A stretch of DNA of 64,000 bases from Chloroflexota bacterium (GCA_009692845.1 SHYK01000005.1:37975-101974), one strand, 5' to 3'. Shown: positions 4,028 through 64,000, numbered from the stretch's first letter. Notes: generated from the sequence alone by a model not told the origin. Numbers and translations: made by a program.

Positions 4028-5787
4028 CCGAGGTGCAAGCCGATGTGGAGGTCGCGGAGCTGGCGCTCGTCGACCCCCGATGGAGCGTTCATCAGGAGAT
4101 CCTGCGCGCTTTGATTCTTCGGGAATGCCATGACTTCCCGGATGTTCGGCTCGTCAACCATCAGCATGACGGTGCGCTCCAACCCGGTGGCGATGCCGCC
4201 GTGGGGTGGAGCGCCATATTCGAATGCCTCCAGCATGTGGCCGATGGACGCTTCCGTCTCCTCCTTGCTGTAACCCATCAGCTCGTAAATGACTCTCTGG
4301 ATCTCCGGCTTGTGGATGCGGATGCTGCCGCCGCCCACTTCGTAGCCATTACAGGCCAGGTCGTACTGATTGGAAGCGATCCCGCCCGGATTGGCCCGAA
4401 TCGCATCCGCGTCCATCACGATCGCGGAGCAGAACGGGTTGTGCATGAAGGTCCAGCGGTTCTCTTCCGGGAGCCATTCCATAAGTGGAAAGTCGATGAT
4501 CCAGCCAAAGGCGAGCAGGTTATCATCGATGAGGTTGCAGCGGCGGCCAACCTCCAGCCGCAGGCGTCCCAGCACGTCGGCGGCGACCAAGGGCTGGTCG
4601 GCCACGATCAGCAGCATGTCGCCCAGGCTCGCCCCTGATCGCGCGACGATCCGCCCGGTCTCCTGCTCAGAGAGAAACTTGGCGGCTCCCCCCCGCAGCC
4701 CATCCGCCTCGACGGCGAGCGTGACCAGGCCCTTCGCCCCGAACTGTTTCGCTTGATCGATCAGGGCATCGGTTTCCTTGCGGGTCAGGGAAGCCCAGCC
4801 GGGTGCAACGATGCCCTTCACGACGCCGCCGGCCGCCAGCACCGCGGAAAAAGCGTTGAATGTGGTCTCGCCGACTTCGTCGGACAGATCGACTAGCTCG
4901 ACCCCAAACCGGAGATCCGGCTTGTCGGATCCCCACCGCCGCAACGCCTCTTCGTAAGAATAGCGTGGGAACGGCTTCGCCATCAGCTTCCGTTGCGAGC
5001 AGGTCTCGGCGATCCGGATGTACAGTTCCTCCATGAGCTCCAGGACGTCGTTCCGCTCTACGAAGGACATTTCGAGATCGAGCTGAGTGAACTCCGGTTG
5101 GCGGTCGCCCCTTTGGTCCTCGTCCCGAAAGCAGCGGGCGATCTGGTAGTACCGGTCCAGGCCGGCCACCATCAAAATCTGCTTCAGCTGCTGGGGAGAC
5201 TGGGGTAGGGCGTAGAACTCACCCGGGTGGACGCGGCTCGGCACGAGGTAGTCCCGGGCACCCTCGAGCGTGCTCTTGGTCAAGATGGGGGTTTCAATCT
5301 CGATGAATCCCCGCTCGTCGAGATAGTCGCGCATGGTCTTGACGACTTTCGCCCGGGTGACGATATTGTTCTTCATCCGCTCCCGGCGCAGGTCGAGGTA
5401 GCGGTAGCGGAGTCGGAGGCTCTCATCCAGGTCGGCGTCGCGGCTGACCTCGAAGGGCAGCGGCAAGGAAGGGTTCAGGACCTCGGCGCGAATCGCTACC
5501 ACCTCGATGGCGCCAGTGGGGAGATCGGAATTCTCGGTCCCGGCTGGACGGAGGGACACCGGGCCCTCGATCTCCAGCACGTATTCGCCGTGCGCTTCGC
5601 TAGCCACCTTGTGCGCATCGGGCGTGATTTCCGGGTTGAATACCACCTGGACGATGCCCGCCCGGTCGCGCAGATCGATGAAGATCAGGCCGCCGTGGTC
5701 GCGCTGCCGATGCACCCAGCCCTGCAGAATAGCGTGCTGGCCGGCATGGCTGGCGGTGAGGTCGCCACAGCGGTGGGTACGGCGCAT
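4024..5787 (-). CDS. aspS: Aspartyl-tRNA synthetase (bacterial type)
   Basis: MRRTHRCGDLTASHAGQHAILQGWVHRQRDHGGLIFIDLRDR, class II motifs, ATGLERTVMLM. Confidence 0.97.
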   Translation of the reverse strand: MRRTHRCGDLTASHAGQHAILQGWVHRQRDHGGLIFIDLRDRAGIVQVVFNPEITPDAHKVASEAHGEYVLEIEGPVSLRPAGTENSDLPTGAIEVVAIRAEVLNPSLPLPFEVSRDADLDESLRLRYRYLDLRRERMKNNIVTRAKVVKTMRDYLDERGFIEIETPILTKSTLEGARDYLVPSRVHPGEFYALPQSPQQLKQILMVAGLDRYYQIARCFRDEDQRGDRQPEFTQLDLEMSFVERNDVLELMEELYIRIAETCSQRKLMAKPFPRYSYEEALRRWGSDKPDLRFGVELVDLSDEVGETTFNAFSAVLAAGGVVKGIVAPGWASLTRKETDALIDQAKQFGAKGLVTLAVEADGLRGGAAKFLSEQETGRIVARSGASLGDMLLIVADQPLVAADVLGRLRLEVGRRCNLIDDNLLAFGWIIDFPLMEWLPEENRWTFMHNPFCSAIVMDADAIRANPGGIASNQYDLACNGYEVGGGSIRIHKPEIQRVIYELMGYSKEETEASIGHMLEAFEYGAPPHGGIATGLERTVMLMVDEPNIREVMAFPKNQSAQDLLMNAPSGVDERQLRDLHIGLHLG

Positions 5788-16236: not shown

Positions 16237-16310
16237 GGGCGAGTAGCTCAGCCGGTTAGAGCGCACGGCCCACATCCGTGAGGTCAGGGGTTCGAGTCCC
16301 TTCTCGCCCA
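16237..16310 (+). tRNA. tRNA-Val(CAC), with C at position 33
   Basis: GGGCGAG TA GCTC AGCCGGTTA GAGC G CACGG CCCACAT CCGTG AGGTC AGGGG TTCGAGT CCCTT CTCGCCC A; full cloverleaf. Confidence 0.9.
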
Positions 16311-16325
16311 CCCATTTCCAGGCAC

Positions 16326-16365
16326 GAAAACGGTCCCCTGGCGTCGTAGCCGGGGGACCGTTTTC
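16326..16365. terminator. Strong hairpin between tRNA and integrase
   Basis: gaaaacggtcccc ... ggggaccgttttc, 13-bp perfect stem ending in T-run. Confidence 0.75.
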
Positions 16366-16413
16366 TGTGACGGATGGAATACGGATGGAATACGCGCCGT
16401 GCGTGGCCGAAAC

Positions 16414-17700
16414 TCAGCCTCTGAGTGCCCGTTGAACCATCTCGGCGGCTTCCATGTCCATGCCTTGAACGGCGTGCGTGTAAAGGTCCATCGTGATTCC
16501 GATGGTGCTATGGCCGAGGCGGTCGCTCGCGATCTTCATCGACACGCCTGCGCGAAGCATTAGCGTGGCATGGGCGTGGCGGAGATCATGGAAACGGAAG
16601 CTCTCGGGGATCCTGGCTCGCGCCAATGCCTTCTTGTAGTCGCGCAGCACGTTACGGCTGTGAAGCGGAGTTCCGAGGTGAGTCGAGAACACGAGCCCGT
16701 AGTCGGCCCAAGCGATGCCCGCGGCCAGTCGCTCGGCGGCTTGCTGGGCCTTGTGGGCGCGCAGCCCCTGGACCGCTTCGCTTGGGAGCCCGATGGTGCG
16801 GCGGCTCTTGGCCGTCTTGGTCTCGCCGAATACTGGTTCGGTGCCACGGACACCTTGCACCCTGGAGAGAATGCGACGGACGGTGAGGCTCCCCGATTCG
16901 AGATTGATGTCCTCCCACTTCAGCCCCAACAGTTCAGCTTGACGGAGACCCGAGTAGACAGCGAGCGTCCAGAGGGCGGCCAGGCGGTCGCCATGCTGTT
17001 GGGCCGCTTCAGCGGGTGATTTGCCTGCTTTCAGTGCATCGCGATATGTCGCGGCGTTTGCGTTGGCGACGTCTAATAGCTTCCCGAGGGCCATCCCATC
17101 CGGAGGGTGCATCTCCCGACGGGGGACGCTCGGCGGGTCCACGGCTTCGGTGAGGTTGCGCGTGAGATAGCCCCAGCGGACCGCTTGTCCGAACGCCCGG
17201 TGCAAGACGGAATGAAGGTGGTGGACCATCTTCGGCGAATAAGTCGCCGTGGCCGGGCTCTTTTGTTGGGGCCGCGATCGAACCGTCTCGCCGAGCATTG
17301 CGCCATAGAGGCGCTGAAGATCGTCGGGGCGCAGAACCCGGAGCTTCTTTCTCCCGAGCGCTGGCACCACGTGGAGGCGAACGATGCGCTCGTAATGCTG
17401 GTAGGTGCTGAGGCGAACGGTCGCCTTGGTCGCTTCGAGCCAGCGGGCGAAATAGCCCTCGACGGTCTCGCGCTCTTTGGCGGCGTCGCCGATCAAGCCG
17501 TGATCTGCCCGGCTTCGCAGCTCGTCGAGCTTCTGGCGGGTCTCGTTGCGGGTTGATCCTGAAACCGTCCGCACATCGCGCTTTCCATCGGCTTGGTATC
17601 CGACCATGATTTGCCCGGTCCACCGGCCGCCAGCCCGCTGGTAGATGGTCCCTTCGTGTGCTCCCCGTTTGTGGCTCTTGCGTTTCGGCTCGACGGTCAT
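16414..17700 (-). CDS. int: Tyrosine recombinase/integrase
   Basis: GTIYQRAGGRWTGQI N-domain; AVYSGLRQAELLGLKWEDINL; FHDLRHAHATLMLRAG; LGHSTIGITMDLYTHA. Confidence 0.95.
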   Translation of the reverse strand: MTVEPKRKSHKRGAHEGTIYQRAGGRWTGQIMVGYQADGKRDVRTVSGSTRNETRQKLDELRSRADHGLIGDAAKERETVEGYFARWLEATKATVRLSTYQHYERIVRLHVVPALGRKKLRVLRPDDLQRLYGAMLGETVRSRPQQKSPATATYSPKMVHHLHSVLHRAFGQAVRWGYLTRNLTEAVDPPSVPRREMHPPDGMALGKLLDVANANAATYRDALKAGKSPAEAAQQHGDRLAALWTLAVYSGLRQAELLGLKWEDINLESGSLTVRRILSRVQGVRGTEPVFGETKTAKSRRTIGLPSEAVQGLRAHKAQQAAERLAAGIAWADYGLVFSTHLGTPLHSRNVLRDYKKALARARIPESFRFHDLRHAHATLMLRAGVSMKIASDRLGHSTIGITMDLYTHAVQGMDMEAAEMVQRALRG

Positions 17701-17738
17701 CTTGTACTCCCTTGCTTGATTCTTGATTGGGATGCTAG

Positions 17739-18167
17739 TTAGCTGGCTGTCGCCCATTGGGCCCACTTCTCTGCCAGGGAGATCACGCCGAGCCCGTTTG
17801 TTTCGGGCCGGTCAGCGAGAAAGATGGCGGCGGCTTGCAGGCAGCGCAGGCGGACTTCGGTGCCATCAGTGCGCCTGGGAGTTGGCGCTCGAAGCTGCCC
17901 TTTCGGTTCGGAGGCGCCCATCTCCAAAAAGGGGACATCTTCGATGGTCGCGGGTATTTGCGACGAGACTGGCTCAATAGAGCGGACGTAGCCTTTTCCG
18001 TCCAGCGTGAGCCGGGCGGTGGTTCCAGTGGGCGGGATAGTCGGGGCAGGCGATGCGAAGCGGGACAAGTTGAACCACTTGTTTGGCTCTTCGATGGTCA
18101 AGAAGCCAGTGCCCGCGCTATTCCCCTTCGCGATGGTGCGTTCGACGGTGGCGGTCGTGGTCATCAT
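17739..18167 (-). CDS. Hypothetical protein (possible single-stranded-DNA-binding/OB-like fold; speculative)
   Basis: 142-aa ORF in the leftward operon with integrase; TGTTARLTLDGKGYVRSIEP. Confidence 0.55.
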   Translation of the reverse strand: MMTTTATVERTIAKGNSAGTGFLTIEEPNKWFNLSRFASPAPTIPPTGTTARLTLDGKGYVRSIEPVSSQIPATIEDVPFLEMGASEPKGQLRAPTPRRTDGTEVRLRCLQAAAIFLADRPETNGLGVISLAEKWAQWATAS

Positions 18168-18218
18168 GTTTGTCCTTTCCCGGGGCCGGGGCTCGCGAGC
18201 CCCGGTCCCGATGGTTGT

Positions 18219-18377
18219 CTAGCGCTGGGCTGGCTCTTGCTCGCGAACGGTGAGATAGTTTTCGAGAGCTTCGGCAAGCAATTTGGTCATTGGCTTCCCC
18301 GACGATTGCCCAACCAGCCAAAGGCGGTGAATCAACTCTCGGGGAAGCTCGGGCTGGTATCCGCCCTGGCGGCTCAC
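18219..18377 (-). CDS. Small ribbon-helix-helix-like protein (52 aa)
   Basis: GTG start overlapping SWIM gene stop (GTGA); PELPRELIHRLWLVGQSSGKPMTKLLAEALENYLTVRE. Confidence 0.6.
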   Translation of the reverse strand: MSRQGGYQPELPRELIHRLWLVGQSSGKPMTKLLAEALENYLTVREQEPAQR

Positions 18378-18712
18378 AGGACACCGCCGCAAGCGGAGCA
18401 GTAGCCCCAAAGATCGGAACCACGTCCGAAGGGTTTTGGCTTCCAGCATCCGCAGGGCCATTCGATGATCCCGAGGCCGGCGATGCGGATGCCTTCGACT
18501 GCAGCGGCTAGATGGCGGCACTGGTGGCGATAGGTGAAACCGGGGCAGGTGCACCCCGTTGGGTGTCCAGAGTGGAGATTGACCCGGTAAAAATGGCCTG
18601 GGTTCGATTTCGACTCGACTGCGACGCTTTGGCTCCCATCATCCAGCAGAATCTTTTCGCCTAGGGCTTCGATTGTTCGTGGTAGGCTTCGAGGTGCGGG
18701 GCTGGTGCTCAT
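18374..18712 (-). CDS. Small SWIM-type zinc-finger protein
   Basis: CTCPGFTYRHQCRHLAAA (CxCx(n)CxH) after a compact beta-rich N-terminus. Confidence 0.75.
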   Translation of the reverse strand: MSTSPAPRSLPRTIEALGEKILLDDGSQSVAVESKSNPGHFYRVNLHSGHPTGCTCPGFTYRHQCRHLAAAVEGIRIAGLGIIEWPCGCWKPKPFGRGSDLWGYCSACGGVL

Positions 18713-18777
18713 TTCACCTTCTCCGTTTCTGGCCGCCGGGTGTGTGAGAGCTCCCGGCGGCCTTCTCAATGTTTGGG

Positions 18778-18987
18778 TTACGCGGCGATGGCGGCCAAGG
18801 GCGCACCAAGGTAGACGGCGCGCAGGGTTTGATCGACGGTTTCAAGTGTGGCCAAGGCGCCCTCCTCATCGCCCGGCTCGAAGTACGCCTTGAGCGTCCA
18901 GTAATAGGTGCCGTCCTTGGCCCGCTGCAGCTCGATGCTGGACTTGCTCTCGCGGATCGTGGTGGCCATTTGATTGGTCGGTTCCAT
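18778..18987 (-). CDS. Small hypothetical protein of the integrative element
   Basis: 69 aa MEPTNQMATTIRESKSSIELQRAKDGTYYWTLKAYFEPGDEEGALATLETVDQTLR; first ORF of leftward operon. Confidence 0.5.
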   Translation of the reverse strand: MEPTNQMATTIRESKSSIELQRAKDGTYYWTLKAYFEPGDEEGALATLETVDQTLRAVYLGAPLAAIAA

Positions 18988-19103
18988 TGGGATTCTCCTC
19001 CGTTCTTATACTATCTTAATCGATAATGGTATACGTTGTCAACCTATTGTGATAGTTCTTGTATAATCTCAGATAATGAGCCAATCAGACGAAAGGATTC
19101 GAA

Positions 19104-19298
19104 TTGGCGGAAGGAGACCGATTGCTCACAGTTCGCGAGGTTGCGGAGCGGATCAGGACCACAGAGGCGACAGTGCGCCGCTGGCTGAGAGATGGACACC
19201 TAAGTGGCGTCCGGCCTGGGGGCACGAAGCTCGGGTGGCGGATCGCGGAGTCCGAGCTTCAGAGGTTCCTAAGCAGTTCGACGGCGCCCGGATCTTGA
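19104..19298 (+). CDS. Excisionase/MerR-like helix-turn-helix protein
   Basis: LLTVREVAERIRTTEATVRRWLRDGHLSGVRPGGTKLGWRIAESELQRFL. Confidence 0.85.
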   Translation: MAEGDRLLTVREVAERIRTTEATVRRWLRDGHLSGVRPGGTKLGWRIAESELQRFLSSSTAPGS

Positions 19299-19607
19299 AA
19301 CCCCGGGGTATGCCCCCCGCGCTGTATCCAAGGCTCAGGCCGTGGGGCGGTGAATTGTCTTGCGCACCGACCATGAGGGGCGGGGTATCGGGACAGGGCG
19401 TAATAAGGACGTGCTCATCTGTGAGATGTGTCCGCGTCCACCGATTCGGAAAAATGAAAGACTGGGGCTCGAACTTCAAAGTGGCTCAAAGCGCAGCGGC
19501 TCAAGCGGACAAAGCCAAGTTCGACCTGAAGGACTTACAGGCGGTGCTTATCAATGCTTGCTTTGGTTCGATGAGAGCGGGTCAAGGGGGTTAGGGCGGG
19601 ATTGGGC

Positions 19608-20621
19608 TCAGGACCCGAAAAAGTGATGCAGATTCTCCCCCAGTGCTTTGATCACGACCACAGCCAGAAGAATCCCCCAGAGCCAAAACGGCCCATCGGC
19701 AAAGAATGCCACCCACGAAAGTCTCTTCTTCGAACGCGGTAATGGCGAAATCGGGATTGGAAGCGAATCCTGCCGCATTGACGGTCCTCGCTCGTGCAGG
19801 AGCAGATCGCGTGCCAAGACCACTCGGGTGCCCGCCGCTAGGTCGTGAAGTGCCCGGCGATCCTTTCGGACTAGGGGCACCCCAAAAGTCCATCCGATCA
19901 TGAGGTACAAGAGGAATCTGAGCGACGCTCTAAGCACACCGGCCAGGCCGCTTAGGCGCCGGCCATCAGGACCGAGGATCGCGACGCCCAGCACGTACTT
20001 GCCGACGGAACTACCCGCAAGGCCCCAGCAAAACGTGAAGTACACCGCTGCAATGAGGTATCCGAACACGGTCGCCCCGGCCTCGGTAGCCATCAGCTCC
20101 TTTACGAGGCTGCTGTCAAAAGGGGCAGAAGGAACAGGCTGGCGTACTAGAAGCAGCCAGGTAATAACGCCCCACGCAAGGAGAACGCATGCGATGTTGT
20201 CGATCATGCTGGCCAACCATCGGCGGCTCAAAGGCGCCCGCTGGTACCGCTCACCCAAAACCTTGAGACGGCTATCGAGCCCGTGGTTGTCTTCGATGGG
20301 TGCTGTCTGGGTGTCTTCACCCGCCGAGGGCTCCGGGCCTGGGACTCGGCGGCGTTCGGCCTCGAATACTTGAAGGAGTTGCTCGGTCACCGGAACCAAC
20401 ACGCCTGTGTACGCGCGCAAAGCAGCGAGAACATCACCGAACTGTGCAGAGTGGTCGAGGGCCAAAGCGCCGGCGGCGAAGATGCGAAATAGGCCATCCG
20501 TGTACGCTGTGAGCGCTTTTTGCTGCTCAGCCTCAGCTTCGTTGGTCACTCTTGCCGCCGCCGTTTCGCACCAAATTGGCGGGTCTTGCGACCGCGTTGC
20601 CGTGATGCAAGGCGCAAGCAT
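19608..20621 (-). CDS. RDD-family membrane protein
   Basis: APLSRRWLASMIDNIACVLLAW...GSSVGKYVLGVAILGPDGRRLSG...RKDRRALHDLAAGTRVV. Confidence 0.82.
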   Translation of the reverse strand: MLAPCITATRSQDPPIWCETAAARVTNEAEAEQQKALTAYTDGLFRIFAAGALALDHSAQFGDVLAALRAYTGVLVPVTEQLLQVFEAERRRVPGPEPSAGEDTQTAPIEDNHGLDSRLKVLGERYQRAPLSRRWLASMIDNIACVLLAWGVITWLLLVRQPVPSAPFDSSLVKELMATEAGATVFGYLIAAVYFTFCWGLAGSSVGKYVLGVAILGPDGRRLSGLAGVLRASLRFLLYLMIGWTFGVPLVRKDRRALHDLAAGTRVVLARDLLLHERGPSMRQDSLPIPISPLPRSKKRLSWVAFFADGPFWLWGILLAVVVIKALGENLHHFFGS

Positions 20622-20750
20622 ACTCCAGGCAGCAAGCAGTCCATGACGCAGCTAGCAAGGCGGCGGGCAGCCAACGAGAGCCCGAACAAGACGAAGACGG
20701 CCCTCGGTGGGCGGCTACCGTAGCCGCTGTCTCGAAAGACCGTGAGAGGA

Positions 20751-21029
20751 TCAAGGCTGGCGGTCCTTAAAGTTGCCTCGACGCAGGTACTTTTGCTCCT
20801 CAGCGGTGCCCGACTGCCAATATTCTTCTTGGAGCTTTTCTCGTTCCTCCCCTTGAGCAGCGAGAAGCCTGTGCAGCAGGTCAAGTCTTGCATCTTGTCG
20901 CTGTTTCCTCTGCCGATCCCGCCTCTCGCGTTCAGTTCTTTCCTCTTCAAGGAAAATGGACGCCCGGAGTTGCCGGTCGTCGGCCTCCCGTTTGAGCGTC
21001 GGGTTATGGCTCTGAAGCACGTCACCCAA
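20751..21029 (-). CDS. Small charged coiled-coil protein
   Basis: 92 aa, EEERTERERRDRQRKQRQDARLDLLHRLLAAQGEEREKLQEEYWQ; start directly abuts the stop of the upstream ORF. Confidence 0.55.
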   Translation of the reverse strand: MGDVLQSHNPTLKREADDRQLRASIFLEEERTERERRDRQRKQRQDARLDLLHRLLAAQGEEREKLQEEYWQSGTAEEQKYLRRGNFKDRQP

Positions 21030-21224
21030 CTAATTGACCACGAAACTGAAGGCGAAGTAGAGAATTGCCCACAGAACAAGAGCCGCTAGAACCCACCCGC
21101 CGAGTATTCCGAGGGCTTCACCGGTCGGCGGCTTGGCGCCCGGCAGCAATGGCTGGGCATGATAACTTTGAGCGATCCAGATGGTTGCGCCGATGGCAGC
21201 GAGAATCCCAGTGAAGCCTTTCAA
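21030..21224 (-). CDS. Small two-TM membrane protein
   Basis: MKGFTGILAAIGATIWIAQSYHAQ...GILGGWVLAALVLWAILYFAFSFVVN. Confidence 0.55.
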   Translation of the reverse strand: MKGFTGILAAIGATIWIAQSYHAQPLLPGAKPPTGEALGILGGWVLAALVLWAILYFAFSFVVN

Positions 21225-21258
21225 GGGGCGCCTTCAGCCAACGGGAGCGACGGCTGGG

Positions 21259-21456
21259 TCACCGAAGGCGGTCCTTTATCCAAGTGAAGAGACCTGTCAT
21301 GAGGGCAATCGGAAGGCCAATCACCACAATCACAACGACGATCAACACCATAGGCAGAATGGCGGTCCCCAGAAAAAAGGTGAAGACGCCAACCGCGAAC
21401 CCGGCTGGCAGATCACTACTTACCCTCTTTGAAAAAGTCGGACAGGCGCTCGCCAA
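21259..21456 (-). CDS. Small membrane protein (start uncertain)
   Basis: LPAGFAVGVFTFFLGTAILPMVLIVVVIVVIGLPIALMTGLFTWIKDRLR. Confidence 0.45.
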   Translation of the reverse strand: MASACPTFSKRVSSDLPAGFAVGVFTFFLGTAILPMVLIVVVIVVIGLPIALMTGLFTWIKDRLR

Positions 21457-22930
21457 CCATGATGGCAGTGAGGTTCGTGTTTACGTGGGGAATGGTGGGG
21501 AAGATCGAGGCGTCGGCCACCCACAGGTTGTCCATCCCGTGCACCCGGAGCCGCTCGTCGACTACTGCACGGGGGTTGGAAGCGGGCGCCATCATGCAGG
21601 TGCCCGAGCTATGGTGATAGCTATCCATCGTGCTCTGCGCAAAGGTGATCCAGTCATCGCTCGGGGCGGGCTGGATGAGCGGCCCGTAGAACTGCTCCAT
21701 TCCGCCACTGTGGGTCATCTCCATGATGAACTCCATCGCATTACGCATCGCCGCGATGTCCACCGGATCCTCGAGCATGGGTGAATGAACGTTCGGTAGC
21801 TCCGCCGGATCCCTATTCTGGAGGGTGACCCGGCCGCGGTTGGTCTGCTGAACCAGGTTGGCCCCCACTGGGAGCATCGGCTTGAGACTGCCCACCTGGA
21901 TGGGTGCTCCGGCGCCGATGTGGAAATTTCCGCAGGACAGGCTGGGATCGCTCTTGTACACGAGTCGCGCCCGAGGAATGATCCAGTCGGTCTGGTAGCC
22001 GGTCTGGCCCTCGAAGGTCATCGTGATCTTGGCGTGGTCCTGGTGGTTCTCGCCGACCCCGGCCAGGTTGTTCACGACCGGGATCCCCAGCCGATTCAGC
22101 TCGGCCTCCGGGCCGATGCCGGATAGCATGAGAATCTGGGGGCTGTGCAAGGCGCCCGCGCTGAGCACTACTCGGTCAGCCGTCGCCGAGTGAGACTGAC
22201 CTTCCCGGACGTACTGCACGGCGTCCACATGCTTGCCGGAGATCTTCAGCCCGGTCACGAGCGCGTCTGCGACGATGGTGAGGTTGGGCCGCCCTCGAGC
22301 GGGATCGAGATAGGCGACGGTGGTGGATTGTCGCGCGCCATTCTTGATATTGGATGCAGACGGGCCGACGCCAAATGGGTCGGGCCCGTTGAGGTCGGGG
22401 CAGATGGGCAAGCCCATCGCGGTGACCCTTTCGATGAAGGCCTGGACCGGCTCATCCAGGGGCTGATCGAAGGTCCACGGCCTTTTGATATAGATCGGGC
22501 CGCTAGACCCGTGAATCGGGCTATCCGGGAAATCTTGATCCGACTCCATCCGTCGGAGGATCGGCAAGCACTCTTCGTAGGACCAGCTCGGGTTGCCGTG
22601 GGCCACCCAGTTCTCGAAGTCGAGCCGGGTCGGGCGAGGCGCAGCCATCGCGTTGACCGACGAGCCCCCGCCCATGATCCGACCGGACAGCTCGTAAAAG
22701 GTGCTGCCGTCAACCTTTCGCTCGCTCGGATACATGAGGATGTAGTCCGACTCGAGCAGCAGGTTCACGTCGCGGCGTCCCGCCGCCACGATATCCGGCA
22801 GGGGCTGCGGGTCAGGGCCGGCTTCGATAAGGAGCACCTTGCAGGCGGGGTCCTCGGTGAGGCGAGCCGCCGCCGCGCATCCCGCCGAGCCGCCGCCGAT
22901 GATGATGACGTCGAAGATCTCCTGGGCCAT
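21416..22930 (-). CDS. GMC-family FAD-dependent oxidoreductase (choline dehydrogenase-like)
   Basis: EIFDVIIIGGGSAGCAAAARLTEDP; GRIMGGGSSVNAM; SAGALHSPQILMLSGIGP; HHSSGTCMM; WVADASIFPTIPHVNTN. Confidence 0.95.
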   Translation of the reverse strand: MAQEIFDVIIIGGGSAGCAAAARLTEDPACKVLLIEAGPDPQPLPDIVAAGRRDVNLLLESDYILMYPSERKVDGSTFYELSGRIMGGGSSVNAMAAPRPTRLDFENWVAHGNPSWSYEECLPILRRMESDQDFPDSPIHGSSGPIYIKRPWTFDQPLDEPVQAFIERVTAMGLPICPDLNGPDPFGVGPSASNIKNGARQSTTVAYLDPARGRPNLTIVADALVTGLKISGKHVDAVQYVREGQSHSATADRVVLSAGALHSPQILMLSGIGPEAELNRLGIPVVNNLAGVGENHQDHAKITMTFEGQTGYQTDWIIPRARLVYKSDPSLSCGNFHIGAGAPIQVGSLKPMLPVGANLVQQTNRGRVTLQNRDPAELPNVHSPMLEDPVDIAAMRNAMEFIMEMTHSGGMEQFYGPLIQPAPSDDWITFAQSTMDSYHHSSGTCMMAPASNPRAVVDERLRVHGMDNLWVADASIFPTIPHVNTNLTAIMVGERLSDFFKEGK

Positions 22931-23080
22931 TGCTGTTGCTCCTTCCTGCCCCACAAGAGCCTCGTAAAGCTTGCTCAGGGCGAGGGTCGAACCTCGCTGG
23001 TCGCCGTAGTATATGGTTGTGATCTCATTCTTGGTTGCTGTCCTCGGTCCTGAGTTGGATAGGAGCGCGAGAGGTGCTTG

Positions 23081-23542
23081 ATGCTGTTTAGCGGAACGAT
23101 GACCCTCGATGCTGAAGCCGGCAAGGTCTGGGATTTCTTGCTCGATGCGAAAGCATTCGCGGCCTGCGTGCCGGGCGTCGAAAAGGTTGTTCAGATCGAC
23201 GAGCGGACATTTGAGGGCGTCATCCAGGCGACGGTGGGCCCCATCTCGGGCGAATTTCCGTTTCGGGCGGAAATAAAGGACAGCAAGCCCCCCACTGAGC
23301 TCTCGGCTCTGGTGCACGGCACCGACTCGATTACCAGAAGCACGATCGACGCCGAGCTGAGCCTGGTGCTGACCGCACTCCCGGCTGATCAAACGGAGCT
23401 CGGCTATAAGGCGGTCGTCAACATCAAAGGCAGGCTGGCCATCATTGGCGACATGGTCCTGCGCGCTACGGCGGCGGTGATGCTGGAGGAGTTCAAGGAC
23501 CGCGTCCGTCGCAATCTCGAGAGCGACCTGGTGACGTTTTGA
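23081..23542 (+). CDS. CoxG-like SRPBCC protein (CO dehydrogenase subunit G family)
   Basis: MLFSGTMTLDAEAGKVWDFLLDAKAFAACVPGVEKV. Confidence 0.85.
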   Translation: MLFSGTMTLDAEAGKVWDFLLDAKAFAACVPGVEKVVQIDERTFEGVIQATVGPISGEFPFRAEIKDSKPPTELSALVHGTDSITRSTIDAELSLVLTALPADQTELGYKAVVNIKGRLAIIGDMVLRATAAVMLEEFKDRVRRNLESDLVTF

Positions 23543-23543
23543 C

Positions 23544-23576
23544 AGGAAATGCGCCGTAGCATGCGGCGCATTTCCT
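23544..23576. terminator. Hairpin downstream of coxG-like gene
   Basis: aggaaatgcgccg-tagcatg-cggcgcatttcct, 13-bp perfect stem. Confidence 0.55.
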
Positions 23577-23681
23577 ACCGGGAAGCTAAGATACCGGCAC
23601 AGTCAGAAAGTGTTGGAACCTGGGACGCAGATCCGCCCACCATCCGGTCGAACCTGGGGCGGCGGATTCGGAGGAGGAAGG

Positions 23682-24071
23682 ATGAATACATTGGAGCGGC
23701 CGTTCACCCTGGATCACCTCGACCACGTCGTGCTCCGGGTGCATGACGTGGAGAAGTCGAGCGATTTCTACCGGATGCTAGGGGGCGACGTGGGAGAGGA
23801 ACGGGGCGCGGGCGTCCCGGTCCACATCACGGATGGTCAGACCATTATTCTGCAGCGCCACCCCGAATACGTCCCCGCTGACCTCACCGCGATCGACCAC
23901 ATCAACTTGAATATTCATGCCCCGGACATGCAGCAAGTAAGCGCCTATCTGCTGGCGAACGGCGTTGAGTTCGTGCGCGAGGTGCCGACCCAGGGCGGTG
24001 ATACGGTGAGGGTCTTCGACCCTGACCGGAACGTCATCGAGATCCGGATCGTTCGGGAAGGGTCCCGCTAG
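23682..24071 (+). CDS. VOC/glyoxalase-family protein
   Basis: LDHLDHVVLRVHDVEKSSDFYRMLGGDV...VFDPDRNVIEIRIV. Confidence 0.88.
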   Translation: MNTLERPFTLDHLDHVVLRVHDVEKSSDFYRMLGGDVGEERGAGVPVHITDGQTIILQRHPEYVPADLTAIDHINLNIHAPDMQQVSAYLLANGVEFVREVPTQGGDTVRVFDPDRNVIEIRIVREGSR

Positions 24072-24145
24072 ACCGTTCACCCAGTGCACCAGCGCCTTGG
24101 CCAGCAGCCGACGGCTGGAACCAGCTTGGCGATGACCAATTCCAG

Positions 24146-24517
24146 CTACCATGAACCACGGTCCCAGCCGCGCCCTACAAGGTGCCGCGGCGGAAGAGAG
24201 CGCGCTCGGGCCGATCCCAACTGGGGGTTTTGGGGGTCCGGTCCATGACGCTCAGCGAGCGTGGGGCGAGCGTGATTTTTTCCATCGCCATCATGCTGAC
24301 CCTGGGCGAGGCCGTGCGAGAGCGCCATCGAATAGCAGCTCGCATGTGAAGCCGCCAGGAGCTCCTCGGGGCTAGTGCGTCCAGACGGCGCATCGGTTCG
24401 CGAGGCCCAACTGACTGGCAGATCCTTGAATAGCTGGGTAGTCGCGGCCGTAACAAGACCTTTTCCCGTGAGCAAGTCTCCTTCCCAACTCGCTTCGGCG
24501 CGGCGATCTAGTCCCAT
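24146..24517 (-). pseudogene. Truncated/frameshifted OsmC-family protein
   Basis: N-term RRAEASWEGDLLTGKGLVTAATTQLFKDLPVSWASRTDAPSGRTSPEELLAASHASCYSMALSHGLAQ is OsmC-like, then similarity is lost. Confidence 0.6.
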
Positions 24518-24924
24518 TTGCCCTCTCTCATTGGGCGCCCCCCGGGACAGGAGAGCCCTCAGCAAACCTGTGGGCTGCGTCTTTGATGGGGCCTGCGTCG
24601 CCCACGGGCCGGATTAAAGACTGCCGGGCGCACGGCCCGCAATGAGCCGATGCCCATGCCCATTTTCCGGTCATCAGAATTGGGCCTTTTTCGGGAAAAC
24701 TCCGGCATTTTTTGGTAGTAAACGAGCATCAATTGGCCAGAACGGCCAGAAATCTGGACGAACCGGCAACCTCCGTCGAGTTTAGGCAAAACGGGACATC
24801 TATCAGGAAGTCCGTGCCTGACTACGTCGGCGAGTCGGGACAACTCTTCGCGGGGGCGCAGACGGCCTATGTGGGGCGGACCCATGCTTTCGCGCCCCCT
24901 TCTTGTCCGCGTGGAAAGTTTCAT

Positions 24925-25209
24925 TTATTGGCCATCGGCCCATCCCCCCTTGGGTTCGAACTCGAAGGCATGTGCGAGGTCGACCATCAAGGCCGCCAAA
25001 GAGTCATAAGCCGGCACACGCCCAGAGTGAATGTCCTCCAGCGCGCTATCGATCCGGGCGAGCAGGAAACCATGGTCACACCAATGTCGGCAGAGCGCGC
25101 TTCGCGAGAGGCCATGCAGCAGCGCAAGCTGGCGGTAAGGTTCGCCAGTGTCCAAGGCCGCGTCGATATCGACTCGATTGCGGTGTAGGCAAACGCTGCA
25201 TCGGCGCAT
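24925..25209 (-). CDS. Small Cys-motif/HTH DNA-binding-like protein
   Basis: CSVCLHRNRVDIDAALDTGEPYRQLALLHGLSRSALCRHW. Confidence 0.65.
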   Translation of the reverse strand: MRRCSVCLHRNRVDIDAALDTGEPYRQLALLHGLSRSALCRHWCDHGFLLARIDSALEDIHSGRVPAYDSLAALMVDLAHAFEFEPKGGWADGQ

Positions 25210-25237
25210 TCCTAATCCTCCTTCCTAGCCACCGTGG

Positions 25238-28135
25238 TCACGGCCGATCCGGCGGGGCAAAGTGCCCGGTAGGTTGCGGGTGGCACTCTCCGCACACGCG
25301 GCCTCCGCCATGCTCTTGCTTCCGCTCCCACCATGCGAGGGATCCGCACACGGAGCAGGGCGCCGACGCCTCCGCTAGTCCGGGCCCAATCGGCCCAAAG
25401 AGCCCAATGCGGCCCGCGTCGTCCGGATCCAGGCACCGAGCGCCGGGGATTGGGCCGGTATCGTGGGCCCGAAGTCCGTCGGGCGCGGCTGCTTCAGGCC
25501 CATGTTCAGGCCCGAATCCGCTGCGATCCACGAACGGCGGAGCGCTCCCTGGGCCCAATGGGCCTGCTGGGCCCGTTGTGTCCGTACCATCTCCCCACAG
25601 GCGTTCGGCCAGGATATGAAGCACGGGGCGTCGCACGCCTTCGAGTGTGTGTCGGACCGTATGCTTGCCGCGTCCGGTGTCGACCGAGGCCAGCAGCCCC
25701 TTTTCAGAGAGTCGTTTCCAAAGGGTCCGGTCTGTCACACCGATTATGCTGCCCTGATCACGAGCCAGAGCCTGCGCTGCCGCATAGGTAGCTCCGGGCT
25801 CTAGGAAGAGATTGTCGGCATCGAGCCAGCCGATGCGCTGCCCTTGGGGGCGCCACTCGGGCCGCTGGTACTCACCAGTGCCGACAGCCGACTCGCGCCA
25901 CCCCCAGCGGTTAGCATTGACGGGGGCGGCGCCGCCCCCGTCGGCGAGATGCGCTCGCCCGGCAACAATTGCGGACCTGACCAGAGACAGGAACTGGCGC
26001 GCCGGATCCTCGCTGGCTTGGTGCTCCGCTTGGTCCTGCGCCATGAGTCCGAGCGCAGCCCAGGCGCGGTTCCGGATGACATTGGCCTCGCTTGTGCTAA
26101 TAGCGCTGATGTCGACTGCAAAGTGCAGCCACAGGTCCCAGCCAAGCATGAGGCTGGCGACCGCATCGGGGGTCCGCCGGTGCAGAACCGCCTGGTGAGC
26201 CTGCTCTCTCAGTGAAGCCGCTCTGTCGCGCATGGTAGCCCGAAGTTGGTCGATCTGAGGGGCGAGCCAGCGGATGTATCCGGCCATGGCTTGGGCGTAC
26301 AACCCAGCCCGGGCGTCCTGCTGAGCTTTGCTGAGGTGCGCCATGTTCACGTCCTCGGGGCCGACAGCGTCCACGGCTATTCGGGCGCGCAAGGAATGGC
26401 CCCGTGGAACGTCTTCGCCCGTAGAGAGAATCAGCCCGCGTGGCGCGTAGGTTTGGCGCAGTTGGGTATCGGCGGCCATCCGGCCTCGGCCCGCTTGATT
26501 GCCAGCACCGCGAAGCAGGCGGTCGGCGGTCGCGTGCAGTCGCGCGATGTCGGCCGGACTTCCGCTGGGTGCGAAATCGTCGACAACCATGAGCGCATCC
26601 TTTGCTTCGAATGCCAATCGCTCGAGGAAGTTCGCCGTTGCAGACCAGGCGGCGGGGAGGTGATGCCGATCGAAGCCTTTGCCGAAGTGTGCTTGGAGTA
26701 GGGCCGCTAGCTCACTCTTGAACACCCCGGTGGGGCCCGATATGTGCACAGCCAGGTCCACTGGTGAGACCTCGGCTAACGGCGCTCTATACGCGGCGGC
26801 AATTAGCGGAACCATCACCGCGTCGGAGGCAACGGCCAGGAGGTCGAGCGATGCACGGACTGCCTGGCGAAGTCCCTCGCCCTGTGGTGGATCGGGTAGT
26901 TGAAGCCGTGCGAGGGGCCCGCCCATGGACACCTCGATGCCGTCGACCGGCCCATTGGGCCCGATAGCGCCATCTGCGTGGAGATAGAGCCAGAGATCAT
27001 TGATCTTCCGCCAGCCGGAGTGCTCATAGACGCGGGACTGCGGCACGTGTCCGGACAGGAGTTGAATGGCTGCGCGAAGGCGATCCCTTGTGCCCATCCC
27101 CGCTCCGACGACTGCATTCGTGCCCCACGCCACCACCGGCCAACTCATTGCAGCAAACTGCGAGATAGGCACACGAGCGATGCCGAGTGGGCGCCCGTCA
27201 TCACTGGTGCCATCGATCCGCAGCTCACACCGCTCGTTGGCGCCGTCGTCCGCGACAATCTGGGAAACGATTCGGGCCGAAAAGTTGGCCAGGGGTATGA
27301 GCACGTCGCCGTCCCGTTCCCGCTTACGAAAACAGATGCGGCCATGGTCGATGACATAGGGCCCCGTGAGATCGTCGTCCGTCTCGGACAGCCACTTGTC
27401 GAATGGGACCACTGCCCGCTGCAGCTCTTCCAACTCGTGGCCATCCGCCAGGAGATCGTCGACGCCAGTCTTCGCGAGATTGATCATGCCACGTTGCTCC
27501 AAGAGGGTTGACCAGGCGAGCATCGAAACCACCGCTCGGCGGTTCTGGAGCCAGCGGGCGAGTCGCAGCCCGGCCAGCCGAACTTGCGCGTTTGTGAGGA
27601 TGTCGCTGTCAAACGCGATCACAACCTCTCGGCCCCCGAGCACGATGCTGTCGAAGTCCGCCTGAAGGCTTGGCACCTTCCATGCCCAGACTCCGGGAAC
27701 GTTGATGGCGACGATGCCACGTGAGGCAAGGGCGTCCGCCTTTTTGCTGCCTTCGGTGATCCAAAGGGGCAAGTCGGGATCCGCGAGCGCAAGGCGGCAA
27801 CTGGGTGGCACGTCGAGGCGCAGGGCGATCTTGGCGGGTACGTCGTACTTGATCGGCTTGCCTGCTTTGGTGATCCGCGGCCGGTCCCAGCGGAGCACCG
27901 AATAGGGATGCTCTCCAGCGGGATCATGCTGGGGAATCACCATTGCCGGGAAGCTTTCTGCGTGGAGCTGAGTGCCCCTGAAGTTGAGGACCCCACCGGC
28001 CTTGAGCGTCTTCCATTCTGGCGCGGACCAGTAACCGCGTTCCGCGATGACCTCTGGCGAGATGCCCGAGCGCTCTAGGATCGCCCGGTGCTCCTGGGAA
28101 AGCGGGAGTCGGCCGATGCTGTCAGGTTCAGTCAT
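25238..28135 (-). CDS. Replication protein: DUF3854/TOPRIM-like N-domain, P-loop helicase-like domain, C-terminal zinc ribbon
   Basis: LWITEGSKKADALASRGIVAINVPGVWAW; Walker A ISGPTGVFKSELAAL; ALMVVDDFAPSG; C-term CSVCGSLAWWERKQEHGGGRVCGECHP. Confidence 0.8.
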   Translation of the reverse strand: MTEPDSIGRLPLSQEHRAILERSGISPEVIAERGYWSAPEWKTLKAGGVLNFRGTQLHAESFPAMVIPQHDPAGEHPYSVLRWDRPRITKAGKPIKYDVPAKIALRLDVPPSCRLALADPDLPLWITEGSKKADALASRGIVAINVPGVWAWKVPSLQADFDSIVLGGREVVIAFDSDILTNAQVRLAGLRLARWLQNRRAVVSMLAWSTLLEQRGMINLAKTGVDDLLADGHELEELQRAVVPFDKWLSETDDDLTGPYVIDHGRICFRKRERDGDVLIPLANFSARIVSQIVADDGANERCELRIDGTSDDGRPLGIARVPISQFAAMSWPVVAWGTNAVVGAGMGTRDRLRAAIQLLSGHVPQSRVYEHSGWRKINDLWLYLHADGAIGPNGPVDGIEVSMGGPLARLQLPDPPQGEGLRQAVRASLDLLAVASDAVMVPLIAAAYRAPLAEVSPVDLAVHISGPTGVFKSELAALLQAHFGKGFDRHHLPAAWSATANFLERLAFEAKDALMVVDDFAPSGSPADIARLHATADRLLRGAGNQAGRGRMAADTQLRQTYAPRGLILSTGEDVPRGHSLRARIAVDAVGPEDVNMAHLSKAQQDARAGLYAQAMAGYIRWLAPQIDQLRATMRDRAASLREQAHQAVLHRRTPDAVASLMLGWDLWLHFAVDISAISTSEANVIRNRAWAALGLMAQDQAEHQASEDPARQFLSLVRSAIVAGRAHLADGGGAAPVNANRWGWRESAVGTGEYQRPEWRPQGQRIGWLDADNLFLEPGATYAAAQALARDQGSIIGVTDRTLWKRLSEKGLLASVDTGRGKHTVRHTLEGVRRPVLHILAERLWGDGTDTTGPAGPLGPGSAPPFVDRSGFGPEHGPEAAAPDGLRAHDTGPIPGARCLDPDDAGRIGLFGPIGPGLAEASAPCSVCGSLAWWERKQEHGGGRVCGECHPQPTGHFAPPDRP

Positions 28136-28382
28136 GGGTCTTGCGCCCCGCACCGTCGGCCCGGACGCGCTCGATGGCGGCATCGGCCAGCGCTTCGGCG
28201 GCACGGCGGCTCACCACTACGCGGCGCTCGCTGATTTGGATCAGTAGCCCAAGCCGCCTGGCCTGAACGTAGCTTTGGGCCCGCCCGAGCGGTGGTGAGA
28301 AAAACTCGCGACCCCAGGCTTCGACGTTGAGGAAAGGGGCTGTCTTGTTGTTGCCGGTCGATTCCACGGGTATCCTCCACAC
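28128..28382 (-). CDS. Small hypothetical protein upstream of and overlapping the primase gene
   Basis: ORF overlaps primase start by a few bases; AWGREFFSPPLGRAQSYVQARRLGLLIQISERRVVVSRRAAEALADAAIERV. Confidence 0.45.
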   Translation of the reverse strand: MWRIPVESTGNNKTAPFLNVEAWGREFFSPPLGRAQSYVQARRLGLLIQISERRVVVSRRAAEALADAAIERVRADGAGRKTHD

Positions 28383-28457
28383 GCTTGCCGCGTCTGTGGA
28401 GGAAGGTAGAGGTTGGTTTTGTAAGTCCGAAAGGGAGGACAGTGGAAAACTTACCGA

Positions 28458-29264
28458 CTAGGCGAGGGCGATACCCAGGTCGTCGGCCCAGTCGCGGACT
28501 TGGTCCCAGACAGTCTGGCGGTGCTTCTGCACGCGGCGACCGATCTCAGCGAAGTTAATTCCGACGCACACGTGGAGATAGAGTTGTTCTGCTCCTGACT
28601 TCAGGGCGTCCGGCTCAAAGCTTCTGGACCGCCGTGAAAAGCCGGCGTCACGCAGTTGAGTTTCAATCCTCTCGGCTTGCTCGACGGCCTGCTGCCGAAG
28701 GTCGGCAAACAGCCGATCGAGTTCTTGCGCGAGCCAATCACGGCTCACTGTGTCTGCGGGATAACTCAACAGACCGCCCCCAGGGAGTTGTAAGCGGATG
28801 GTGCGGTCAACCGCCGGATCATCCCACTCGAGAAAGTCAGGGAACAGGTGGGGCTCGGGAAACTGCTCGAAGTACCCGTAGGACATGATAAGGTCACGCG
28901 CCGCGCTAGCCGGCAGCTTCCACTTTTGGGAGAAGGTCTCGATGAGGGCGAAGGCCGGGCGAAAGTAAATGAACTCACTTGAGCTCAAGTGCCGCCGATC
29001 CGCAGAATTGCCATGGTCAGGCGGATCAAGAGGTAGGATGAAGCGCAGCAGCCAGGCTCGTTCCGAGATGCCGGCGGGCGCCAGTCCGTCCACCGCCGAA
29101 AAAAGTGACGAGAGCTCCATGAGGAAATGGCGGTCTTGACTCAGTCGGTCGTAATAAGCTCGCTTTCTCATGAAGTTCAGCGCGCCGTCCGGGAAAAAGC
29201 TTCGATCAGGGGCGGGTGGGTACCTACTCTCGTTGACATAGAAGTCACGGAAGTCGGCAAACAA
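28458..29264 (-). CDS. Hypothetical protein of integrative element, C-terminal HTH-like region
   Basis: TTG start at 29264 preceded by GAGGAGGTG; LHVCVGINFAEIGRRVQKHRQTVWDQVRDWADDL. Confidence 0.6.
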   Translation of the reverse strand: MFADFRDFYVNESRYPPAPDRSFFPDGALNFMRKRAYYDRLSQDRHFLMELSSLFSAVDGLAPAGISERAWLLRFILPLDPPDHGNSADRRHLSSSEFIYFRPAFALIETFSQKWKLPASAARDLIMSYGYFEQFPEPHLFPDFLEWDDPAVDRTIRLQLPGGGLLSYPADTVSRDWLAQELDRLFADLRQQAVEQAERIETQLRDAGFSRRSRSFEPDALKSGAEQLYLHVCVGINFAEIGRRVQKHRQTVWDQVRDWADDLGIALA

Positions 29265-29527
29265 GAAGCACCTCCTCGATGGTGCGAATGAGCCGGGCCC
29301 CGGCGTTCGAGGCTGCCAGGCTTTCGAGGGGTGATCAGCCCCTACCCGGCTTGCTGCCAGTGTAAGCGGAGGGCAACCGCGACGCTGCTGCCTGCTAGGC
29401 CCGGTCGCAATTCTGGATGGAATACCGATGGAATCGCGGCCAGACGGGGCAAGACCGATCACCGGAAATGAGCGGTTCTAGGCACGAAAACGGACCCAAC
29501 GGGACGGGGAAAGACCCCTTCTGGAAA

Positions 29528-29574
29528 CCCACATCCGTGAGGTCAGGGGTTCGAGTCCCTTCTCGCCCACCCAT
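29528..29574 (+). repeat. attR: 3' half of tRNA-Val plus 5 nt, exact copy of 16269-16315
   Basis: 47/47 identity by eye; no 5' tRNA half present. Confidence 0.95.
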
Positions 29575-29585
29575 ATTCAGGCAGC

Positions 29586-29609
29586 AAACGCCCGCGCAAG
29601 CGGGCGTTT
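29586..29609. terminator. Probable original tRNA-Val terminator, now separated from the tRNA
   Basis: aaacgcccgc-gcaa-gcgggcgttt followed by T-rich tract. Confidence 0.8.
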
Positions 29610-62620: not shown

Positions 62621-62965
62621 TTCAAAAAATACCGTCTGAGGGGGTCCAAACAGGGCTATTCTAGGCACAAACCGTCCCACCGTGTCCACCCGTTTCTGAC
62701 CCCGTAGAGTGTCAGTTAGAGTGTCTTTTTTCGACACACGAAAAACCGCGTGTCAGCCCTTTTCAAGCTGGCCTAGTACCACCGCCGAGGCGATCGATTC
62801 ACCACTCGACGCACCTGCCGACGAGCCGAATAGCGAACCACCGCACCGGGGCCACGGGTCACCGCGCGAGCCGTCCAGAACCACGAATGCAGCCCAGAGG
62901 GCGGGCGCATCATAATGCTGGCGATCTCGGATTCCTGTGGCCTGGTCTTTTATGGAGGATAGCTG

Positions 62966-63706
62966 ATGCACTGCTCGTCATTCCTTGCCAACAGCGTCTT
63001 CATTTCCATCAGGGCAGTTGCCTTCACTCTCTTCCTAATTCTCCCCTCGACCGCCTTCGCCCAAGATCTCATCATCGCCACGGTACCTCCCGACCTGCCC
63101 CACTACGACCGCGACGCTTTTCATGTCTGGATCGATGCAGATGGCGATTGTCAGGACACCCGAGCCGAAGTGCTCATCGAGGAGTCCCTCGCGCCGGTCA
63201 CCTTCCGCGCGTCGAATGAGTGCACGGTTGGTATGGGGGACCGGATCGACCCATACACTGAGACACCGTTGCCCCCTGACGAGGAACCGCCCGCCGGCCC
63301 GATCATGGACGAGTCAACGACGCAGCCCGCAGTGTCCGGGGTTCCTGCTGTGCTCCAAGGGATAGAGCAGCCTACCGCCCCCCCAGCGGAGCCGACTTCG
63401 CCACCTCGTCCAGCTCAACCCACCGCAGTGCCCCTCGTGCCCACCGCAGCGCCCCTCGTGCCCACCGCAGTCCCCTTCGTGCCCACCGCAGTCCCCACGA
63501 CTGCTCCGGTGGCCTCCTCCTATAACGTGGCCCCGTACATCGGACATGGTGATATTGCCAATTGCGGAGATTTCCCCAGCCAAGCCTACGCCCAAGCAGT
63601 CCTCCGGGCCGATCCGTCCGATCCGAACAAACTCGACACCGATCGAGACGGTATCGCCTGCGAGTCGCGGCCGAACCCGAAGGACCTGGTGCGGGTGCCG
63701 CGCTAG
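62966..63706 (+). CDS. Secreted protein: partial HNH/DUF1524-like N-domain, P/T/A/V-rich repeats, C-terminal Excalibur domain
   Basis: VWIDADGDCQDTRAEVLIEESLAPVTFRASNECTVGMGDRIDPYTE; PTAVPLV repeats; CGDFPSQAYAQAVLRADPSDPNKLDTDRDGIACESRP. Confidence 0.82.
   Translation: MHCSSFLANSVFISIRAVAFTLFLILPSTAFAQDLIIATVPPDLPHYDRDAFHVWIDADGDCQDTRAEVLIEESLAPVTFRASNECTVGMGDRIDPYTETPLPPDEEPPAGPIMDESTTQPAVSGVPAVLQGIEQPTAPPAEPTSPPRPAQPTAVPLVPTAAPLVPTAVPFVPTAVPTTAPVASSYNVAPYIGHGDIANCGDFPSQAYAQAVLRADPSDPNKLDTDRDGIACESRPNPKDLVRVPR
63419..63502 (+). repeat. Four 21-bp tandem repeats encoding PTA(V/A)P(L/F)V
   Basis: cccaccgcagtgcccctcgtg and three near copies. Confidence 0.9.
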
Positions 63707-63748
63707 AAGCTCGTCGAATCAGGAACGCGCCTGATCCGACTCCAGCGC

Positions 63749-63871
63749 CTAGCTAGCATCCCCAGAAGCCGCCACGGCCTCACTCCGACCGCAGGCAATG
63801 CACGTCCACCAGCCCCGCCGCCAGGGGTCCAGCTCGATCACCATGTGGCCGCAATGCGACGTGGAAATCAC
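63749..63871 (-). CDS. Possible 40-aa zinc-ribbon microprotein
   Basis: GTG start; ISTSHCGHMVIELDPWRRGWWTCIACGRSEAVAASGDAS*. Confidence 0.35.
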   Translation of the reverse strand: MISTSHCGHMVIELDPWRRGWWTCIACGRSEAVAASGDAS

Positions 63872-64000
63872 CGTGAGACGGCAAGGGAACGCTTCTGGTC
63901 ACGTTACGGTGATCGCGGCATAGTGTCCGGAATAAGCTGAGGAGGCCAACACTGCGTGGCTGCGAGCCCCAATAATGGGGTGATTCACGCCTGCGTTCGT

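Follow-up and report, generated by a model that had tools for sequence, protein, structure and literature searches.

The question raised by this locus is what kind of element has settled in the tRNA-Val(CAC) gene of a Chloroflexota bacterium and how it could move between cells. We analysed a window of 64,000 nucleotides—the whole stretch of DNA considered here—which is part of contig C7 of a 1.88-Mb host genome (G000; 10 contigs, 88.9% complete). Our preferred reading, to which we give a probability of roughly 0.7, is that the 13.26-kb element inserted at this gene is an excisable island that has its own replicon, uses a specific integration site and, in its excised form, probably replicates; we class it as a replicon-bearing tRNA genomic island.

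The bounds of the element are precise (Table 1). The exact 47-bp att duplication described in an earlier note on this DNA as bounding a ~13.3-kb tRNA-Val element was found, with both copies located (47/47 identical, 13,259 bp start-to-start) and the tRNA-Val(CAC) gene identified; at such a length a chance repeat is ruled out, and the similarity extends beyond the core to 61 bp at 93% identity. Position 33 of the tRNA, where the 7-base anticodon loop begins, is the first base of the core, which ends 3 bp beyond the tRNA; at attL the element makes good the 3' half of the gene from that loop onwards. An intact tRNA at one end, a displaced 3' fragment as a direct repeat at the other and a tyrosine integrase inside the element adjoining att are the features of the tRNA/tmRNA islands in the Islander set, which includes 2083 islands in the anticodon-centred attP class (PMC4383910), and crossover in the anticodon loop is also shared with them. 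Unlike those islands, the element has a backbone with a TOPRIM-Cch type replication protein, a SWIM protein and a 142-aa protein; a text search of the main text of the Islander paper (PMC4383910) finds no mention of Chloroflexi. By GC profile, the element is not distinguishable from its host (0.620 vs 0.626-0.628), and promoter and terminator scans gave no signal above chance level.

Table 1. Features of the element and its borders (positions in the window)
Feature	Position	Strand	Evidence or remark
tRNA-Val(CAC), target gene	16237..16312	+	ARAGORN
attL core, 47 bp	16269..16315	+	repeat comparison of window
Core-adjacent repeat TTCCAGGCACGAAAACGGTCCC, left copy	16316..16337	+	20/22 match to 29476-29497
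Hairpin, 17-bp stem, T/A tails	16326..16365	.	putative bidirectional terminator for tRNA-Val and int
Paired arm-type repeat GGATGGAATACGGATGGAAT, left copy	16372..16391	+	two 9-mers 11 bp apart
Tyrosine integrase	16414..17766	-	PF00589 3.5e-24, PF14659 2e-11, PHROG_1
142-aa protein	17739..18167	-	30% to G002-element homologue
Small ORF, possibly ribbon-helix-helix	18219..18554	-	overlaps SWIM gene, start uncertain
SWIM zinc-finger protein	18374..18769	-	Pfam 8e-5; 43% to G002-element homologue
69-aa ORF	18778..18987	-	ORF call
HTH_17 excisionase-like protein	19104..19298	+	Pfam 5e-12; PHROG_66; 57% to G002-element homologue
RDD-family membrane protein (cargo)	19608..20621	-	Pfam
Three small ORFs (92, 64, 65 aa), last two possibly membrane proteins	20751..21456	-	
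GMC oxidoreductase (cargo), 505 aa	21416..22933	-	Pfam
CoxG/SRPBCC-like protein (cargo)	23078..23542	+	Pfam; divergent from GMC gene
VOC/glyoxalase-superfamily protein (cargo)	23610..24071	+	Pfam, NCBIfam
Truncated OsmC-like remnant	24146..24565	-	Pfam, NCBIfam; profile positions 2-71/137 matched only
94-aa CxxC and helix-turn-helix protein	24925..25209	-	
DUF3854 TOPRIM primase-like and Cch/Rep-like helicase, putative replication protein, 965 aa	25238..28135	-	Pfam 1.5e-17
84-aa ORF, 3' end inside DUF3854 gene start	28128..28382	-	ORF call
334-aa protein	28458..29462	-	weak C-terminal HTH_23 match, below cut-off
Paired arm-type repeat GGATGGAATACCGATGGAAT, right copy	29415..29434	+	
Core-adjacent repeat, right copy	29476..29497	+	window repeat comparison and motif count
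attR core, displaced tRNA-Val 3' half	29528..29574	+	repeat comparison of window
Hairpin (AAACGCCCGC/GCGGGCGTTT) followed by T run	29586..29609	.	right after attR

While the core of the earlier att description stands, the arm-type repeats inside both ends, 9-bp pairs with 11-12-bp spacing, had been overlooked. Both ends carry GGATGGAATAC[G/C]GATGGAAT internally, that is, two 9-mers with 11-bp spacing, and 12-bp-spaced pairs of other motifs are present at both ends of a related element in the genome G002 and of the tRNA-Arg(TCT) (C3/C5) and tRNA-Arg(CCT) (C7/C6) islands of the host. In 4/4 islands the best 20-mer common to both 200-bp ends is a directly repeated 9-mer pair scoring 17-20/20, all above the maximum of 15-16/20 reached among 60 shuffles, a tandem pair of this kind being expected in 6.7% of random 180-bp stretches; at three further integrase-tRNA loci the pair was seen at one end. 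The arm pairs are a separate line of evidence for genuine att ends on both sides and for an integrase that may still be able to use them. Because paired arm-type sites are known in lambda-like integrases of actinobacteriophages (PMC10865867), they represent expected anatomy, not new chemistry. A further repeat adjoins the cores (two matches within the window vs 0.09 expected). The motif TTCYAGGCACRAA occurs beside both Val cores and again at ~62659, within the terminal part of the tRNA-Arg(CCT) island, and is possibly a site for the integrase, Xis or a host factor. The hairpin at the left end is likely a bidirectional terminator for tRNA-Val and int. The hairpin after attR, previously described as the displaced host terminator, is indeed present, but it need not belong to tRNA-Val alone, as it may equally be the terminator of the convergent LysM/NlpC gene; by eye, there is no clear equivalent of hairpin and T run 3' of the tRNA at the empty site described below.

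An empty site, which the earlier note had proposed to look for in relatives, was found in the same-family genome G004. On its contig C87, the same tRNA-Val is followed ~150 bp downstream by an orthologous LysM/NlpC gene (70% identity), and the element is absent. The G004 site being empty with the same right flank, the element in the window is an insertion. In G004, HflX and the aminotransferase-like gene, which flank tRNA-Val on the left in the window, are together on another contig (L079). The GMC oxidoreductase of the element has no match at 1e-100 in G004, a 76% complete genome, and this gene either arrived with the element or was lost from G004. Elsewhere in G004 (C5 23896-23956; L078 7897-7957) a diverged tRNA-Val 3' half lies at a contig end. 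It begins at the base where the window's att core begins, and probably marks an old att scar or one end of a related island.

A second member in the same family of bacteria defines which genes belong to the backbone. In G002 (contig C272, WHTR01000035.1, "Chloroflexi bacterium Dino_bin42"), a 15.07-kb element sits in tRNA-Leu(TAA) between exact 38-bp repeats at 5565 and 20638, 15,073 bp apart, which correspond to the 5' half of the tRNA up to and including the final anticodon-loop base; a contig of another relative, G084, is QHBP01000419.1 ("Chloroflexi bacterium"). Contrary to the case envisaged earlier, in which relatives would carry the same genes at other loci without the 47-bp repeats, this member at another tRNA has repeats of its own. 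Together with the empty site, it upholds the notion of a tRNA-integrated, non-conjugative element with int, xis-like and replication genes. Common to both elements are Int, HTH_17, SWIM, the 142-aa protein (identities in Table 1) and the DUF3854 protein (39%). In both, Int and DUF3854 are at opposite ends on one strand and the SWIM, 142-aa and HTH_17 genes adjoin Int, with SWIM and 142-aa differing in orientation relative to Int. The other genes of the G002 element encode a DUF5131 protein, an esterase-like hydrolase, a ROK kinase and a SprT-like protein. Since the two elements have only backbone genes in common, cargo has been exchanged while the backbone was kept. Int and DUF3854 were also found together in Chloroflexota and other MAGs; a single-sequence query against genome contigs and viral contigs found nothing, and these relatives were found with an alignment query.

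The backbone suggests how such an element could work. Pfam supports four genes of the set listed earlier (integrase, HTH_17, SWIM and DUF3854), whereas the supposed ribbon-helix-helix ORF gave no match in a Pfam scan. The integrase, scanned as 440 aa (16414-17736), has all its R-K-HxxR-H-Y motifs intact. As a lambda-type tyrosine integrase, it would bind the paired arm sites at both ends and recombine the 47-bp core with the identical sequence in the 3' half of tRNA-Val(CAC), strand exchange taking place within the anticodon loop, so that tRNA-Val would be restored at attL. The HTH_17 protein is a likely excision factor, and the SWIM and 142-aa proteins may have roles of their own. In the excised circle, the replication module, attP and the integration module would be adjacent, with a variable cargo bay opposite, and the DUF3854 TOPRIM-helicase would prime and unwind DNA for copying of the circle.

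The best reading of the DUF3854 protein is a predicted primase-helicase replication protein. Read from the ATG at 28135, it has 965 aa plus stop (966 aa had been given earlier), and the 84-aa ORF upstream may be translationally coupled to its gene. The reading is based on its motifs, its modelled fold and its characterized relatives. First, it contains TOPRIM motifs (TEG and FDSD) as well as a Walker A sequence (GPTGVFKS), and 12 aligned sequences have the TOPRIM residues (TEG, DxD) and Walker A in common. Second, an AlphaFold2 model (pLDDT 78.6, confident apart from the last 117 residues) has as its top PDB matches SaPIBov1 Rep (8tch, 1.7e-14) and SCCmec Cch (5dgk, 3e-14), followed by DnaG-type primases. 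Third, cyanobacterial DUF3854 proteins are plasmid Reps for which autonomous replication has been demonstrated, the CyRepA2 gene and its upstream region being sufficient (PMC10079941). Like CyRepA1/CyRepA2, our protein has its DUF3854 (TOPRIM-related) domain at the N-terminus and a helicase part after it, but the C-terminal part of CyRepA is of DEXDc type vs a Cch/Rep-like AAA+ fold in our protein, and CyRepA replicons are free plasmids, unlike this element. With a putative replication protein of its own (TOPRIM plus Cch/SaPI-Rep-like fold), the element has one of the features of integrating plasmids and replicating islands, and of the labels proposed earlier, "cryptic integrative plasmid" is the best fit to this Rep-like protein. 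No replication origin was identified in the element, and, as the DUF3854 domain is present in phages too, the "Rep" might be what is left of a phage ancestor.

How the element passes between cells is where the main alternatives to a self-replicating island arise. As stated previously, no capsid, terminase, relaxase or T4SS gene is recognisable: none was found in Pfam, PHROGs, PADLOC and NCBIfam scans of the main ORFs, the PADLOC scan being limited to ten proteins, mostly backbone and small ORFs, among which it also found no defence genes. Because there are no recognisable transfer or packaging genes, movement would need a helper—a conjugative element or phage—or DNA uptake. Many relaxase-less islands move via oriT (PMC11389934), and an integrative mobilizable element of this iOriT type, excised and carried from its oriT by a conjugative helper, could well have its own Int, Xis-like and Rep genes as seen here. 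The scanned ORFs include no relaxase family by Pfam, which separates the element from iMOBs, and PF03432 is absent from the host genome, so that we regard this alternative as improbable. PF05065 (HK97 capsid) and PF03354 (TerL_ATPase) are likewise absent from this 89%-complete genome, in which divergent families may escape detection, and this bears on a second alternative, a PICI-like phage satellite that a helper phage would induce and whose copies, made by its own pri-rep, would travel in helper particles. Int, an xis-like gene and a replication protein, no structural or lytic genes and a size of ~13-15 kb are shared with SaPI/PICI elements, although this is a weak indication because many islands qualify, and the helicase part has the fold of SaPIBov1 Rep (E 1.7e-14, 13% identity), its nearest match. 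The layout is nevertheless unlike that of PICIs (PMC6092414). There is no divergent regulator with an xis-pri-rep block opposite to int; the replication gene lies at the far end on the strand of int, with metabolic cargo between, and the protein has a fused N-terminal TOPRIM domain. No terS or other packaging, capsid-redirection or interference genes were detected by Pfam and PHROGs, although some satellites have none and small proteins may escape detection. The PICI/satellite layout proposed in the earlier note is unsupported in that form; what resembles PICIs is the fold. Moreover, SCCmec Cch is an equally good fold match. Remote DUF3854 proteins do occur in tRNA-bounded elements of 9.5-10 kb with an HK97 capsid gene (L118, L167), yet these match the N-terminal domain only, and in none of the tested records of closer, long-type relatives is PF05065 next to DUF3854. 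On balance a satellite seems decidedly unlikely.

Our preferred reading of an island with its own replicon also has to be set against two other known types. SCCmec resembles it in being a non-conjugative island with a replication protein (with the same helicase fold as Cch) and cargo, but SCC elements are moved by ccr serine recombinases, in contrast to the tyrosine integrase at a tRNA gene seen here. The ssrA islands of Dehalococcoides (vcr-GI; PMC3146451) are closer in host and habit, being Chloroflexota elements at an RNA gene with catabolic cargo and without transfer genes. However, they use the serine recombinase DsiB and a 20-bp ssrA repeat, vs a tyrosine integrase and a tRNA-Val target, and are described as without replication genes, which excludes these IMEs as members of the same family.

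The metabolic cargo at 19.6-24.6 kb had been left out of the earlier gene list. The GMC oxidoreductase, whose nearest NCBIfam models (MftG and choline dehydrogenase) are both under cut-off, has paralogues with 61-62% identity at contig C3 1.3-4.5 kb. CoxG and GMC genes are neighbours at C3 0.8-4.5 kb and in G009 as well, and this sequence context suggests a functional pair. The OsmC remnant shows some decay within the cargo. This broken gene and the absence of phage structural genes would fit a decayed prophage or an immobile genomic island that has lost excision, and a truncated integrase at another tRNA in the host indicates that island decay occurs in this genome. Yet the core is identical at 47/47 positions, the arms are nearly identical at both ends, and the integrase and replication protein motifs are intact; we therefore consider an immobile relic very unlikely.

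The kind of element is already known, but the family appears to be undescribed, as no description of DUF3854 islands in Chloroflexota was found in the open-access literature. The mobile elements of uncultured Chloroflexota are mostly little described, and this case supplies an element with known bounds and an empty site, a further member, a defined backbone and clear att and arm structures. It enables such islands to be mined across MAGs and the question to be asked which helper moves them, and provides a basis for an integration vector in a group without genetics. As a caution, mobile cargo may account for metabolic genes found in such MAGs, and in the host genome several contig breaks lie inside islands. 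A more far-reaching idea, which we consider speculative, is that an undescribed family of replicating islands across Chloroflexota (with relatives in Rubrobacter and Planctomycetes MAGs), marked by a TOPRIM(DUF3854)-Cch Rep, a tyrosine integrase and paired arms, is spread by phage packaging and moves metabolic genes between free-living bacteria, the actinobacterial capsid-bearing DUF3854 elements being its satellite branch.

The host genome contains several other islands, which are broken by contig gaps, and what we say about this set is limited accordingly; at least five contig ends are in or beside such islands. The end of a second island lies in the window itself (island 62621-64000, arm pair 62706-62725), where an att at 62568-62620 matches the 3' half of tRNA-Arg(CCT) exactly over 53 bp; the intact gene of this tRNA lies on C6 (core 5299-5351). 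This island runs to the end of C7, across the gap and through C6:1-5298, and by eye encodes a MATE-like transporter and a SNARE-associated-like protein; no integrase was found in its assembled parts. A third island, at tRNA-Arg(TCT), extends from C3:510523 to the contig end and over C5:1-577 (L072, L178), with a 45-bp exact repeat spanning the contig break, an Int 46-51% identical to that in the window, a Rieske oxygenase and an HNH protein. On C2, an integrase adjoins tRNA-Thr(CGT) (324.8 kb to the contig end; L179) and a truncated integrase of 256 aa adjoins tRNA-Leu(CAA) (226 kb; L180), both loci having repeat pairs with 11-bp spacing.

Other DUF3854 elements occur further afield. Three are bounded by tRNA repeats (L118 8190-17790, L167 60-10270 and L128 300-9620). 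The first two, from Mycobacterium numidiamassiliense and an IMG/VR contig, encode the HK97 capsid PF05065 and look like capsid-forming satellites or small prophages; the third, from a Planctomycete, has by eye a prohead-protease-like protein, and all three are candidate capsid-forming satellites. Actinobacterial provirus contigs (L164-L166) were rejected as a guide to the mode of transfer because they are too remote and match mainly the helicase part (query residues 282-872). Finally, a complete 1.5-Mb genome of the phylum (G071 C1; L068) has three equal-scoring DUF3854 copies (874-aa frame) at 242.8, 265.1 and 812.5 kb, which, judged from sequence, is a multi-copy mobile element.
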